Shown here piece by piece: positions 3,301 to 53,860 of a stretch of 64,000 bases of DNA (positions are counted from its first letter, which is position 1; the number at the start of each line of letters is the position of its first letter). Under the pieces are notes generated by a model, which worked only from the letters and a program-made list of their open reading frames with translations, was not told the DNA's origin and searched no databases. This DNA comes from Ianthella basta (lineage: Eukaryota; Porifera; Demospongiae; Verongiida; Ianthellidae). Location: assembly GCA_964019415.1 (NCBI GenBank), contig OZ025871.1, forward strand, positions 8,790,213 to 8,854,212, in the 5' to 3' direction. A program made the position numbers and the translations under genes.

Positions 3301-6300
3301 AGACCCTCCCATGCCTCCACGGCACCATTGAAATGCCATCAGGTCGTTTCCCATCTGTGCGATAGACTCCAGAAGGTTCAAGACGAGAAGGGATGTGTGC
3401 TGAGGATAGTGAATGATGGATGATTTCATTCAGGGCTGCGTGTCGAGGGTGGCGTCCCTCACTTCGTCTGCAGCTGAGGCCGTGGGTGGCTAGGTTGTCA
3501 ACTTCAGCCCCACACAGGCTGCATTGATGCCTGTCTATACAGATTGATGTCACTATTATCCTGATGATCATTATTGTTGGTAACGGGATGATTGGTTTTT
3601 ATAATTATATGTTATATATTATACATATATTATATATATATATTATTTATTATGTAAGCTTTCAAGATCTTCTGTATAATTATAAAAAACAGGATGCATA
3701 GACACAAAGTATATTGAAAGCTGCTGCCAAACAAATTCAGATGCACCATTAATTTAATGGAACCTTATGCTGAGTATTTTTTTGCTTTAATTATACATTT
3801 GTAATATTATTGCTGCAGTATTCCCACGTCGGACTATCATTCAGGTGGACAGGCAAAGGCTGAGGTAAAGATTTTCGCACCCTGCTTGTACTATATGTAG
3901 CCAGTGCTGAAGAGCTAACTACACGTTAGAACAATATTTGTTTCATACAACAGTATAACTGGTCTTACAACTATCAGAAGACACCTAAATGCACTTTCCC
4001 ACCATCTGTGAACCTCCTCTGTAAGACATACTATAATATATAGTAGTACTGTATCTATTTTGTGCCAGCCTATGGCCAGCCAATTAAGCTACCCAGTGAA
4101 AGATGCAATAAAGATATATAAAGATGCCATTGCACAGATTCTGCTGCATGAAAAATGACAGATTGCTGGGTTTATGCCGCCAGACAGCTACAACAGTTCA
4201 TGTCTCAGCAAGCCTGGGGCCCCAAAAGGTCTTACGGAATGGCTACCTGTGGCAAATGGCTATCAATGGTAGACATTTAATATATAGGGCCTTTTATGTC
4301 CCCCAGCTTCACTGAGACACCAATTGGTGTAGACGGCTGATGGTGTAATTCCAGTGATCACTCACTTTTTACTCACAGTGTACTATACATCACACAGCTC
4401 TTACCATAGTTCTGCATGAACAAATACATTCAGGAATTTTCGTTATTTTCATATAATTTGTAATAATAATATGTACATGAACCATGCATTGGTCACAAGG
4501 AATTCAAAGCACCTCACCATTCTTGTGCAGGTACCAGCAGTGTACTTCCTAAATATGACTGATGATATTGATGCTTGGGAAGTTCCCAGAAGTGAGATTG
4601 AAGTTGGAGTCAAATTGGGCCAAGGGAACTATGGAGCTGTGTTCAGAGGACAGTTGTCAGTGATGGCCATGTCCCCCAGGATCTATGCGCACAAACAAGA
4701 AATGGAATTTGAGGGGAAGTCCAGTCTAACTGTTGCAGTGAAAATGCTTCGGTGTAAGTGTCCATGAGGCATCACTAACTACGTACAAAGAATCATGTAT
4801 TTTTGCTAACTTGTACACTCGGCGTTCTTTAAGAATTGTATTTTGTATATATGCCATTCTAAACTTGGATTATATAGCATGAGAATGTATGCATTTGACT
4901 GTCTGACTGGGGAATATGGTGGTTATTAGTATGCTGCAATGCATAATTAAGCTTCAGCACTACTCTATGTTGGATAAAACGTCTGGACAGGTTCTGGCTT
5001 TCTCTGGTTCTGGACAGGCTCTGTTGGAAATAAGTCTGGACAGGTTAATAAACCTGTTAATAAACCTGTCCAGAAAAGCGATGTATATAGAAGGATTTTT
5101 CATTCAACTGAATACAATACAAGTTTAATCTATGCGATGCCATGCTTCTCAGAAAGATGAACATGCATTCTTGTTGAATTTAAAGGCCAGGGTGTTTTCG
5201 TATTTCACTTTGAATTCTCAATATATCATAATACTGTCAGCAGTAGCTATAGCTCAAGAACCACAAGGAGTAGGGTAAACTGGCGTTTCCCACATAGGTA
5301 TAATTACACTATTTGCAACTATCTGCACTCCGTTGTAGGTCACAAAATAAATATAGCCCCATAAACAGGTTTTGATTTGATCCTCAGGTCTTTTGGCCTT
5401 CAGAAGATGTAGCAAGATGTCAAAATGAGCAAAATGTTTATTCTATACTGACCTAGCAGTAATTTGGAAAGATCCACTTTTCTTCGATCTCTCTTCTTTG
5501 ATCAGGTAACAGCAATGATTCTGAAAGAAAGCTCTTTTTGCATGAGATTCAAGTGATGAAGAGAGTGTCTGATGGCAACCACGTTAACCCTCATGTCCTG
5601 AAGATGATTGGATGTGTCACTACCACCCTTCCAATGATGTTATTCTTACAGTTTGTACCTCATGGGAGCTTAAGGGACTACCTCAGAGCAAAGAAGATGG
5701 TGATTCACATGATAAAAGTGTTTATAATTGTATAATATAATTATGTTGTATGTGCCTGTAGGATTATTTAATTATTTTGAAATAAATGATAACAAAGTTT
5801 CCAGTGTTTAGGGGATTTAGAGAACAAAGCACACAGCTAACATTTACAGCATGTCATGCGCACAAGGCAATCCAGTGTTATGTATTTTTTTAATACAGGG
5901 TGGATATTCTGAAGCCATCAATGATGACCAAGCTGCTGATGAGACATTAGATTCACACTCTGACTCTTCTCGTTCGAACCAAGCACCTAACCCTACCCCA
6001 TTCCTCAAGAAATTCACTACATTTTGCTACCAGATTGCCAGTGGAATGGTGAGCGCTGGGTATTGATTAAATACATGGTGTGTGTTTTCAAATGTAATGA
6101 ATAGTTATTATTTAGTAGCTAGTAATTATTTGCACAGTAGAATATAATCGTCAATGATTGTTCATTTGGAAAGGGAACACACTACAGACTTTCTAATTCT
6201 GCATAATATTATTTCTATAATTATTATGAGTAATGTATATGGCATGCAATTGTTTGCACTAATAGTTTTCTAATGGTGTACTGATGCAATGGTATACTGC

Positions 6301-45618: not shown

Positions 45619-46650
45619 TTACTGCAAGTACTCTGCAAGTGTAGGTGAATGCAGTTGAATGATCACAAACCTTGTTCTCATAAAGATATGCATGACAGTT
45701 TTTGTCAGGAGAACAGCAACGGCATAGTACTTTGTCTCTGGTTGAAGACAAATGTAAGCGTTCTTCTTGAAATCAACAAACGCCCAAAACCTGGTAATTG
45801 TTCCAAATCTCAATTCAATACAAACACGAACTGCACATACTTGAATGTTAAACGCACACTGCTGAGGTGTCAGGTGAGCTCCTAGAAGTGGCTGTACAAT
45901 CTCGGGGTGAATGGGATATGCAGGGTTGCCATAGAGGATCCAGCAGTTTCCATGTCCTTGAGTCATGTGCTTGTAGTAGGAAATCACTCTCCTGTAGCAT
46001 AGTGGCATCATGTCTTCGGCTTTCCACAGGCCCAAAATAAATGCACCATAATTCCAAATGGGGACTTAACAGTCTGAAATTTCAAGGCATCAACACGTTT
46101 GTGACCACTATAGAAAAGACATTGACCTTGAATAGGCCTTGGAATGGGCCTGACTGTTCTGTCAATAAAACCCCAGACATGCGGCAATGGGCAGTACCTT
46201 AGCACAGCATCCTCTTGAAGATGTGCATTTGTAAGCCAAGCAGTGTATCCAGAAGATGATGCCACTTGTCATATGGGAACTCTAAGACTAAATGTGTGAT
46301 AACACTATAAGCTCTGACACACGTCATCCAAAGATGCCTTCTAGATCTTCTAAATGGTTTGGATAAGCCAGAATGCACAATAAAATACAAAGACCCTCCA
46401 GTCCGGTGCAGCGTGTTCAATTACTACCCACCATTCCTACAGGAAGATCAAGAGTTCTTTCGAGTCCAGGTATGCACTCAAAACCATGATTAGCACTGGT
46501 CTGGTAGCAGGCTTTCAAAATCCAACTGCTTCCCTTGTCTGCGTGTATTTCAGCTTGCGCAGCATGCTCCATCGAATGTTTTTCCAATTCTGGAAGTAGA
46601 AGCAGGACTTCGAAAACCGAATCATCATCTGAATCTAGCACAACCATCCA
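45619..46650 (-). pseudogene. Harbinger-like DDE transposase, decayed
   Basis: Minus-strand pieces in order: SKPFRRSRRHLWMTCVRAYS (near 46350), VWGFIDRTVRPIPRPIQGQC and YSGHKRVDALKFQTVKSPFG (near 46170-46060), FGPVESRRHDATMLQESD, ILYGNPAYPIHPEIVQPLLG (near 45935) and VCIELRFGTITRFWAFVDF (near 45820). These match the DDE_Tnp_4 pattern FIDGT / YGDPAYP / E..FG. The first Asp and the Glu are kept, but the second Asp is Asn (YGNPAYP), and there are several frame changes. It is therefore inactive on two grounds. Confidence 0.85.
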
Positions 46651-46936: not shown

Positions 46937-47238
46937 TTAAAGGGACACTGCCACCAAATGACAAGTAGACTTTGAATTAAAGTAATAAGCATGAAACCCT
47001 TGCTGGTGAAGTTTCAATTCTGAAATCGCTGTTGTTCGTGAGATAGAGCTTCGTGAACCATGGTTTCGGAAGCCATATTCGCGTAATGACGCCATTGTGG
47101 TGTGACGTCACTGGCGTGAAACTTGGCATAGACACGCCAATTTGTGTACAAGAACTGCTCTGGCTTGTTGACCAAACACGTCTGCATTTGCTCCAGCAAC
47201 TGTTAACCATCTCCCAAGCTTTAGATAGCACCAGAATC

Positions 47239-49537
47239 ATGCCGTACTGCATGGTCTTTGGCTGCAAGAATGACAGCAAGGACCCCACGCTCCTCAAAGT
47301 TTGGCTGGCTAAGCTTCGGCTTGAAGACCCACCAATCAAAGAAACAAGCCGTGTGTGCTCAGAACACTACGCAGATGAATGTTTCAAGTGGGATTTGAAG
47401 AGTGAGCTGATGTCTGGAGCAAAGCCAAAGCGTACACTGAAGCCGAATGCTGTTCCAACTTTGTTCTCCTTTGTGAAGAGCAGCAAAAGGTCCACCTCCA
47501 CAAAGAGGATAAAAGAGAAAGACGCCAAGCAGGTGAGCTTTAATTTCGGCTAGTGTAGTACTTGTTGCTGCATTGAATACAGGAATCTTGAAAGAAGCTT
47601 GTCTTCAGTCAAAATTATAAGTTTATCGTTATGAAACTCTCGTTCTTTTGTAGCTGATAGAAGATGCTATAGCTATAGAGCCAACCAAAGATATTGCAGT
47701 ACAAACAGGTATGAAGCAAGAAACCATGCATGATTTTACAGGTGATGCAGCTGTCCCATGTTGTCATGTATGATGTAATGCCTGTATTCATACTGCTACC
47801 TTTTTAGATCTTACCTTGATGGATACATCAGCTATCCTAAGTATGAGTACGCGAACAGTTGCCACACAGACCACTTCGCCTCAGAGTCTTCGATCTCAAT
47901 CCACCTGGACCGTGGATGCTCAGCAAGAGATCCACAGTGTTCACCAGGCCATTGAGTTTGAACATGGCTACATCGGGAACAGGGATCTGGACTCAGTTGG
48001 CTCTTGCACCTCTGATCAGGATGTCATGGATACTTCTTTTGTTGCAGCTACCACCTCTAGTGACACTGAGGAATTGGTGGATTCTAATGTTCCTTCATGC
48101 CAGTCACCTTCTGAGACGAAGTACCTAGTGTTTGAGAGCTGCTTGATACGCTTTTTCCAGACATGTCCAATTTGCTTTCAGCACATAATTGAGACAAACT
48201 TGGAAACATTTGGCAGCCTACTATCCATTCAGTACATCTGCGTGTATGAACATGTCTCCAAGTGGTTCTCACAACCTCATGTCAGAGGCATGGCAGCCGG
48301 TAACTTGCTTCTTTCTGCTGCTATCGTGTTTTCGAGCAGCAGCTACACCAAGTTTGCGCACCTTGCCGACACACTGAATCTCCCCATCCTGGCTGAGCGC
48401 ATGTTCCATAGGATTCAGTCCAACTACTTGTTTCCAGTGATCCAAAGCACATGGACGCAACACCAGCAGGTCATCATTCAATGTCTTCAAGGTCAAGACT
48501 TGAAGATCGGCGGAGATGGACGTTGTGACAGTCCTGGCTACAGTGCCAAGTACTGTGCGTACACCCTCATGCTTCAAAAGATAGGGGAGATCATTGATTT
48601 TCAAGTAGTGCAAGTAACCGAGACAACTAGTTCTGTTGCCATGGAGAAGGAAGCCTTTCGCCGTTGCATTAACGGAGTAAGGGATGCAGGGCTGAATGTC
48701 TCCGTGGTAGCAAATGATCGTCACACTGGTAATGCAGCACTTTGCTGCACAGCCTACCCAGAAATCAACCATCAGTTTGATGTCTGACATGTGTGCAAGA
48801 ATTTGTCTAAGAAGCTGCCGAAAGCGGGCAAGCAGCACAAGTGTGAGGACCTGTTGCCTTGGGTGCAGTCCATCTGCAACCATCTTTAGTGGTCCAGTGA
48901 GACCTGTAAGGGGAACGCGGACCTCCTGAAGGAAAAGTGGCTCTCTGTTCTCCACCACACTGCCAACCTCCACACCTGGGGAGGATCACACCTCTTCAGT
49001 GAGTGTGTGCATCTTCCACTTCCAGTTGACAAAGTGGAGCGAACCAAGTGGCTGCCTCCTGGCAGCCATACTCATCAAGTCCTAACCAAGCTTGTAATGG
49101 ACAAGTCTCTGGTTAAGGCACTTAATCATATGACTGCCTTCTGCCACACTGGTAACTTGGTGTATCACTCTGTCCTGCTCAAGTACTGTGAGAAGCGCCA
49201 ACACTATTCCTATGAAGGAATGATTGCTCACACACAGTTGGCAGCGCTGGACAATAATCATAACTTGGGCAGAGCACAAGCAACAACAGCAGCAGGCAAC
49301 CCCCGATACCGCATCTCATATCCCAAGGGCCGGAGCGACTGGGTAGTCAAACCCATCAGTGAGAGTAAGTCATACCCGTACCTTGCTGACATGATGGTAC
49401 AAGTGGTTGAAATGCAGGCAACTGGAGTAGCACTACCACACCCTGACATACCAGACTTGCCTAGGAACATTGCACGCACACCTTGCCCACCAAAGGAAGA
49501 AGTATTAGCCAGACACCAGTCACATTATTCACAGTAA
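47239..49537 (+). pseudogene. Kolobok transposase (THAP finger + DDE domain), two stops
   Basis: Exons 47239-47532, 47654-47708 and 47808-49537 join in phase. The N-terminal THAP zinc finger shows CMVFGC (C-x4-C), VCSEHY (C-x2-H), spaced as in THAP, and the closing AVPTLF. A Ser/Thr-rich linker follows. The catalytic part has GDGRCDSPGYSAKYC (first Asp), VVANDRHTG (second Asp), then HVCKNLSKKL, LHHTANLHTWG and FCHTGNLVYHSVLLKYC..RQ, characteristic of Kolobok. Two TGG-to-stop changes are apparent: FDV-stop-HVCK near 48785, where Trp is usual, and HL-stop-WSSETC near 48888. The exons are otherwise open to 49537. In an active relative the protein would cut at TTAA ends. Confidence 0.9.
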
Positions 49538-49690
49538 CAGTACGACATTGTATGTATTTTTACTTCTTTTCAGTCGCATGTAAGCATAAACACATTTGAC
49601 ATGCATACCTTCACATGTTCAGCTGAAATTATTCATTGCTACATACAGACATTACAATTAAAAGAGTTTCAGTCAATCTTCTTCAGCCTC

Positions 49691-50224
49691 TTAAAAACCA
49701 ACATACTGACCCGACTCTTCTGGGTACTCCTGCCTAATTTGGTGCACTGCACAGGCAGGAATCACTTTTCTAATGGAGCGCCCAAGTCGGGTGTAAATCC
49801 ACCAAGTGAACTGCCAGTACGCCGCCAAGCGCGAAGTCCAATTTGGTATGGGCACTTCAAAGGCCTCGAAGTGCACGTCTTGCATGGCTACAAGCGCGGT
49901 TTGCGGCACTTAAGGGTTCAGGCATACCACACAGAAGCTAGGATGGTTCGTGATGCACCCATGAGATCCCATCTTCTGAAGAATTTCGGTCACTTCCTTG
50001 CAGCAGACGCTCTCCTTCTCGGTTGACATCGCAGGACAATTTCCACACTTGCACCACCGGTTTTGTCCAGTCCTAGCTTCTAAAAGCTCGGTAGGCATTT
50101 GTTCCTCCCTGTCTTTTTCATTCCTGTGCCTTTCACGAAGGCTCTCCAGTTCTTCGACCGTCATTAAAGGCTGGAAAAGATACGGTTCAACGTGCTGCGC
50201 CATAGTGGTTCTAGCCAATTTCAC
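49691..50224 (-). pseudogene. P2X7 ballast-domain-like (zinc-coordinating Cys-rich) ORF inside Kolobok
   Basis: Starts MKLARTTMAQHVEPYLFQPL, a helical charged N-terminus (MTVEELESLRERHRNEKDRE), then WCKCGNCPAMSTEKESVCCK and GCITNHPSFCVVCLNP. After one in-frame stop near 49910 the same frame continues TSRLAAYWQFTWWIYTRLGR, KVIPACAVHQIRQEYPEESG and QYVGF before the end. The order CxCGxC..CC(K/R)..CIT.....(L/V)..V, then LR..AY..(F/Y).W, ILP(A/S)C...IR.E(F/Y)P...GQY.GF is that of the cytosolic zinc-coordinating ballast domain of vertebrate P2X7. No P2X channel part (TM helices, ectodomain) is present. It lies wholly within the Kolobok TIRs, convergent with the transposase, so it is likely the element's second gene. 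Its role there is unknown. Confidence 0.82.
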
Positions 50225-50392
50225 GCCAGTGACATAATCAATATGGCTACCCCAACCAAAGTCAATCTATCTTTGGAGTTTAATTTCTCCCAAACGGTAA
50301 GTCACATGACAATTTCACAGCAAAGTAACTATTTTTACAACATTTATTACGTTTTGAACCTCACTTGAATTTTGGTGGCAGTGTCCCTTTAA

Positions 50393-52794: not shown

Positions 52795-53860
<1,066 letters not shown>

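Follow-up and report, generated by a model that had tools for sequence, protein, structure and literature searches.

P2X7 ranks among the major ATP receptors of the immune system, and to our knowledge its cytoplasmic ballast has no accepted function. Within the window, i.e., the whole stretch of 64,000 nucleotides of Ianthella basta DNA analysed here, an earlier note had described a gene for a ballast-like domain inside a transposon, which raises the question whether this gene belongs to the element as a working part, was taken up from the host, or is simply carried along.

A similarity between a transposon protein and P2X7 has been reported before. According to the available parts of Kojima & Bao 2022 (PMC9587614), the Kol0 group, i.e., the originally described Kolobok elements, encodes, next to the transposase, another protein named KolX, which is similar to residues 476-595 of human P2X7 and to its two-zinc ballast. 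In the same text, P2X7 originates from a P2X4-like gene fused with KolX, Nanor is interpreted as domesticated KolX, and piggyBac relatives with the C-terminal part only are mentioned; the first description of the Kolobok family, Kapitonov & Jurka 2007, is known to us via citation. Rump et al. 2020 (PMC7016195), likewise available in part, proposed as origin the capture of an ancient ballast domain and described ballast (ZCD) proteins across Metazoa, linked in several invertebrates to two common markers, a linkage which was interpreted as ancestral host synteny; the string "transpos" has 0 occurrences in the available text of that paper. Further papers treating the KolX-P2X7 link were not found in a search that had subscription journals and bioRxiv outside its scope. 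Both this link and the transposon origin of the P2X7 tail are already published, and the element in the window is a further example.

Borders, ends, and class of the element

The element and its genes occupy the following positions of the window; the C7 copy is the related element on contig C7, and L numbers denote loci elsewhere in the genome.

46937..50392: Kolobok element including both TTAA copies (3,448 bp between the TTAAs, 46941-50388)
46937..46940: left TTAA target-site duplication
46941..46958, plus strand: left terminal inverted repeat (TIR), 18 bp, starting with AG (5'-RR, Kolobok-like)
47239..47535, plus strand: THAP-domain exon of the transposase (Pfam THAP; homologous exons in other elements)
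47816..49537, plus strand: DDE transposase part with two interruptions, TGA directly following 48784 and TAG at 48887-48889
49691..50203, minus strand: KolX gene (ballast / P2RX7_C domain, Pfam PF20478), ATG at 50203, stop codon at 49691-49693
49910..49912, minus strand: in-frame TAA interrupting KolX in the window copy; sense codon in the C7 copy
50168..50185, minus strand: N-terminal PYxFxP motif of KolX, common to the KolX frames of L034, L038, and L055
50371..50388, minus strand: right TIR, 18 bp, element terminus CT (YY-3')
50389..50392: right TTAA target-site duplication

The TIR sequence AGGGACACTGCCACCAAA is present at 46941-46958 (plus) and 50371-50388 (minus) with 0 mismatches, and a TIR search of the window allowing up to 3 mismatches returned 2 matches versus a shuffled mean of 0.05, with two or more matches in 0 of 100 shuffles. 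TTAA immediately flanks both TIRs, as described in the earlier note along with their perfect 18-bp match, and TTAA is the Kolobok target; the AG...CT termini agree with the 5'-RR...YY-3' rule for Kolobok (PMC9587614, available text).

In the transposase, Pfam THAP was matched at E 7.6e-11 in the ORF 47053-47553 (plus), whereas the best Pfam match of the DDE part was Mutator at E 0.061 and 12.7 bits, i.e., below threshold (cut-off 26.5). The DDE part can be aligned with transposases from further elements of the same genome, and the motifs GGDGRCDS, ANDRH, and YEGM were found by eye. The C/DxxH signature reads DVWH in the C7 copy, and its third position is taken in the window copy by the TGA after 48784, the first of the two in-frame stops of the transposase frame. 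The combination of a THAP domain and a DDE transposase with the C/DxxH signature is that of Kolobok. The probable assignment to Kol0 rests on the TTAA, the RR/YY ends, the THAP and DDE signature, and the presence of KolX. The element in the window is best explained as a degraded Kolobok DNA transposon of the Kol0 type, inactive through its stops, and it carries the ballast gene convergently with the THAP-DDE transposase, as had been claimed.

Two other features of the window were recorded. An ORF adjoining the left side of the Kolobok element (45619-46035, minus) matches DDE_Tnp_4 at E 0.0084, below the cut-off, and may be the remnant of a Harbinger-like transposase. A long AAT-type trinucleotide repeat at 53166-53559 gives rise to poly-Asn and poly-Leu ORFs.

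The KolX gene and its likeness to the P2X7 ballast

When searched against Pfam P2RX7_C (PF20478), the two halves of the window KolX scored 25.5 bits (profile positions 56-113, E 1.4e-5) and 37.9 bits (145-191, E 2.2e-9), both above the cut-off of 23.5, so that the ballast-like domain on the minus strand is recovered by the profile search that the earlier note had proposed. Read through the stop, KolX ranked first (E 4.7e-17) among the 17 PF20478 matches of the 209-Mb genome, in a genome-wide profile search run without a positive control. These curated Pfam scores exclude a chance ORF. In single-sequence searches of the PDB with each half alone, no match was found at E 0.001.

The gene had been taken for a single ORF starting at 50224, and here the account needs correction. 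The TAA at 49910-49912 splits the frame; it is not an intron, as the C7 copy aligns without gaps and has a sense codon at the site. The GTG at 50224 is a mechanical start, and the ATG at 50203 is preferred, given that the codon at 50218, upstream of this ATG, is a stop in the C7 copy. No P2X channel part lies within the element, in agreement with the description of a channel-free gene; the P2X channel profile PF00864 gave 0 matches genome-wide and 0 in control genomes as well.

Two other KolX sequences of the genome gave matches to P2X7 itself. The spliced KolX of family B (see below) matched P2X7 chains in the PDB at E 9.5e-9 to 4.1e-6 (next chain E 0.87), and the KolX-like frame of L032 matched them at E 1.8e-5 to 2.1e-4 (next E 0.6), i.e., P2X7 chains were the only PDB matches of either query at E ≤ 0.001. 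KolX shares with the P2X7 ballast the WCxCxxC, CC, and CIT cysteine clusters, the xxAY motif, the (L/I)P(S/A)C cysteine, the IR..(F/Y)P tail, and the Y.GF end, and differs from P2X7 by being free of a channel part and by missing most of its GDP contacts. The published cysteine motifs of the ballast are PxWCxCx2C and LCCRx3GxCITTS/T (PMC7016195, available text). All seven ballast cysteines (WCxCx2C, CC, CIT, and the last Cys) are present in the window copy, the family-B copy L038, and L034; one is missing in the C7 copy (stop) and one in L032 (replaced), and the rows of L033 and L036 are partial. By analogy, the seven KolX cysteines would bind zinc.

The five GDP contacts of rat P2X7 given in the available text of Rump et al. 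(PMC7016195), i.e., R546, H547, R574, R578, and K583, are unevenly represented among the seven KolX rows: R578 in 7/7, R546 in 5/7, H547 in 1/7 (family B), and R574 and K583 in 0/7. These contacts are poorly conserved outside vertebrates according to the same source as well, and they are therefore not defining for the ZCD. H547 is described there as not found in invertebrates; the KolX of family B has His547 within a P2X7-like R-H-x-A-Y motif. Outside the ballast, four loci (window, L034, L038, L055) have an N-terminal PYx(F/Y)xP in their KolX frames; within the 155 kb scanned, the pattern was seen at three further places, and a shuffled 64-kb window contains it 0.9 times on average.

In an unrooted FastTree tree of 9 sequences including two P2X7, the latter grouped with B-type KolX at a support of 0.958, and the direction of descent is not readable from it. 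The present data agree with a derivation of the P2X7 tail from KolX, the direction itself being beyond the reach of one genome and an unrooted tree.

With the Kol0 KolX described in the available text of PMC9587614, the window element shares the TTAA target, the RR/YY ends, and a DDE transposase accompanied by a cysteine-rich second protein of the ballast type, from which it differs in being a further family and inactive by stops. Stand-alone ZCD and Nanor proteins (PMC7016195, available text) resemble KolX in being short and channel-free with a C-terminal ballast domain; they are treated there as host genes.

KolX beside related transposases across the genome

The exact TIR was found at 3 places in the genome, 2 in the window and 1 on contig C7. 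The C7 copy is 86.5% identical to the window element where both have bases (83% in another alignment) and has TTAT at either flank. With the window transposase as query, 19 rows at 14 loci were obtained, and local tblastn revealed convergent KolX remnants at 11 of these loci, among which C21:2.735M is counted on a 25-residue KolX fragment only:

window, C7:805k, C4:6.315M, C18:5.067M, C1:10.395M, C21:2.735M
C2:6.932M, C7:553k, C1:4.557M, C6:4.065M, C14:2.945M

KolX was not found in the stretches fetched at the other three (C1:10.005M, C9:3.420M, and C2:6.315M, the last consisting of short transposase fragments). L030 on C11 holds THAP and KolX pieces and no transposase match. Pairwise identity among the KolX proteins of five lineages is 33-64%, and since at least five lineages are this diverged, the association of KolX with the transposase is regarded as old. 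The ORF, which the earlier note had suggested looking for in other Kolobok copies, was recovered as a recurrent partner of related transposases; a chance capture that other copies lack, which that note had named as the refuting case, is contradicted by the 11 of 14 loci and by purifying selection between two copies (see below).

Three further observations concern places beyond these loci or departing from their arrangement. At L032 (C1:4365000-4374000), a KolX-like frame at 4262-4669 (minus) is stop-free in its readable part, has about 200 N just upstream, and has no THAP or transposase match within the 9 kb fetched; it is a candidate stand-alone or domesticated KolX, or reflects an assembly gap. 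At L033 (C7:548500-558000), the C-terminal half of KolX lies in frame with a DEAD/helicase-like stretch (5085-5702, minus; E 0.00033, below the Pfam cut-off); about 390 bp of this chimeric place are repeated in L040 (89%), and the chimera was therefore probably made by insertion. Two 178-bp matches (87%) at C1:8799401-8799578 and C1:8773196-8773373 are confined to the left terminal part of the window element and are possible short non-autonomous relatives.

Family B and its transposase-less derivatives

L038 on C18 is a 4.3-kb family-B element with TTAA and with ends starting AGTGCCACTGACATGC. Its KolX is modelled from the sequence as 213 codons in three exons with GT-AG junctions. Under this model, KolX is free of stops, gaps, and lost splice sites in 3/3 full-length family-B copies (L038, L017, and L041), two of which are contiguous and the third split by an insertion. 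About ten short PF20478 matches (~55 aa, profile 141-192) correspond to the last exon of this gene, and their interpretation as C-terminal-only piggyBac relatives was dropped.

Eight family-B derivatives have lost the DDE region and retained the KolX region. Identical deletion breakpoints (1161|3152 of the query) are found in seven of them, i.e., the C6, C12, C11, C2, C23, C22, and C18 copies L040, L042, L037, L015, L009, L039, and L067, and other breakpoints in one. The shared deletion ends just past the KolX stop, and as seven derivatives have it in common, they will go back to one deletion event and have spread since. KolX of 7/8 derivatives has one or more disabling changes (a nonsense codon, an indel, or loss of a splice site), and none was detected in the remaining one.

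Selection on KolX

Between the window and C7 copies, dN/dS was 0.36 for KolX (bootstrap 0.20-0.62; range of estimates 0.33-0.36), 0.44 for THAP (0.22-0.89), 0.69 for the main transposase exon (0.46-1.03), and 0.46 for the downstream transposase part (0.27-0.76). Off-frame controls of KolX gave 0.74 (0.47-1.33) and 0.70 (0.41-1.26), and the main transposase exon was inseparable from its off-frame values (0.55 and 0.82 vs 0.69 in frame). Counted from the ATG, KolX differed by 43 non-synonymous and 30 synonymous changes on 399:105 sites (binomial p 7.6e-5 vs the site ratio). Purifying selection on KolX is thus the clearest signal among those compared, though the off-frame ranges overlap that of the frame itself.

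A different picture was obtained for the eight derivatives, in which KolX singletons, counted without L035 (an 89%-identical decayed relative), comprised 41 missense and 4 nonsense versus 10 synonymous changes on 507:132 sites (p 0.74 vs neutrality). The change ratios of the derivatives and of the window/C7 pair differed at Fisher p 0.007, a contrast weakened by spanning two different families, with the full-length family-B copies too alike for a test of their own. For L038 vs L035, dN/dS of KolX was 0.42. KolX was constrained alongside the transposase and unconstrained once the transposase was lost, which fits what is expected of a trans-acting product, i.e., of a partner of the transposase rather than cargo. 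The idea that the derivatives are maintained KolX sources was dropped, as KolX drifts neutrally there.

Role and origin of KolX

At a probability of roughly three in four, we read the locus as a decayed Kol0-type Kolobok in which KolX is the normal second gene and would encode a small zinc-binding protein of the ballast fold acting in trans as an accessory factor. The fold itself is that of the ballast as far as we infer from sequence. Host cells would produce KolX along with the THAP-DDE transposase, and it would act in trans on transposition; zinc bound by the cysteines would hold the scaffold of the protein, while the conserved PYxFxP at the N-terminus and the C-terminal tail would be contact sites for other proteins; following the published inference, a KolX fused to a P2X4-like channel would now be the cytoplasmic ballast of P2X7.

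Selection in trans would likewise act on a KolX that serves as a self-regulatory repressor of its own element. The observed selection and recurrence are compatible with any trans-acting function, and the eight derivatives have kept the KolX region and lost the DDE part, as repressor-type derivatives might. KolX is neutral in these derivatives, however, and just 1/8 is without a detected disabling change, so that they are not maintained repressor sources; we consider a brake unlikely, while among the autonomous copies nothing separates an activating from a repressing KolX.

The opposite direction, in which Kolobok took up a host ballast-domain gene that was then carried along by the lineage, would suit the occurrence of ZCD proteins across Metazoa with linked markers read as host synteny (PMC7016195, available text), as well as the L032 frame, which is stop-free where readable, interrupted by the N run, and without a transposase or THAP match in 9 kb. 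Yet KolX adjoins transposases in at least five lineages at the low identities given above, i.e., the association is old. Such a capture seems quite improbable to us and, if any took place, would predate the split of those lineages and leave the identity of the present KolX unchanged.

That the ballast gene is useless for transposition and retained merely through its position between the TIRs is very unlikely: the window copy is decayed and 7/8 derivatives have a disabling change, but cargo is disfavoured by dN/dS between the window and C7 copies, by the uninterrupted KolX in 3/3 full-length family-B copies, and by the recurrence at 11/14 loci.

By analogy with the P element, KolX might belong to the Kol0 transpososome as a subunit that depends on zinc and a guanine nucleotide, and might thus contribute in trans the part played in the P transposase by its GTP-binding insertion domain. 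The P transposase, with THAP, RNase H, and the GTP-binding insertion domain, likewise combines THAP with a DDE-type transposase, and P and Kolobok are among five superfamilies sharing C/DxxH (PMC9587614, available text), whereas the GTP-binding domain sits inside the P transposase (PMC7776569, available part). The RHxAY motif with His547 in family B would suit this proposal, but none of the seven KolX rows has R574 or K583, which lowers its odds, and we regard it as a long shot; if true, an ion channel of the immune system would have co-opted a transpososome component as the GDP-binding ballast of P2X7.

Added from this genome are the recurrence of KolX, family B, and the selection contrast, the window copy being an ordinary decayed member. 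The contrast is absent from the main text of PMC9587614 as far as searched, where "purifying" and "synonymous" have 0 occurrences, and it points to KolX working in trans with the transposase. Given the published derivation of the P2X7 tail, KolX would be the place to learn the original purpose of the ballast fold, and this genome offers diverged KolX proteins for it, among them one from three exons whose frame is uninterrupted and whose RHxAY motif is P2X7-like.
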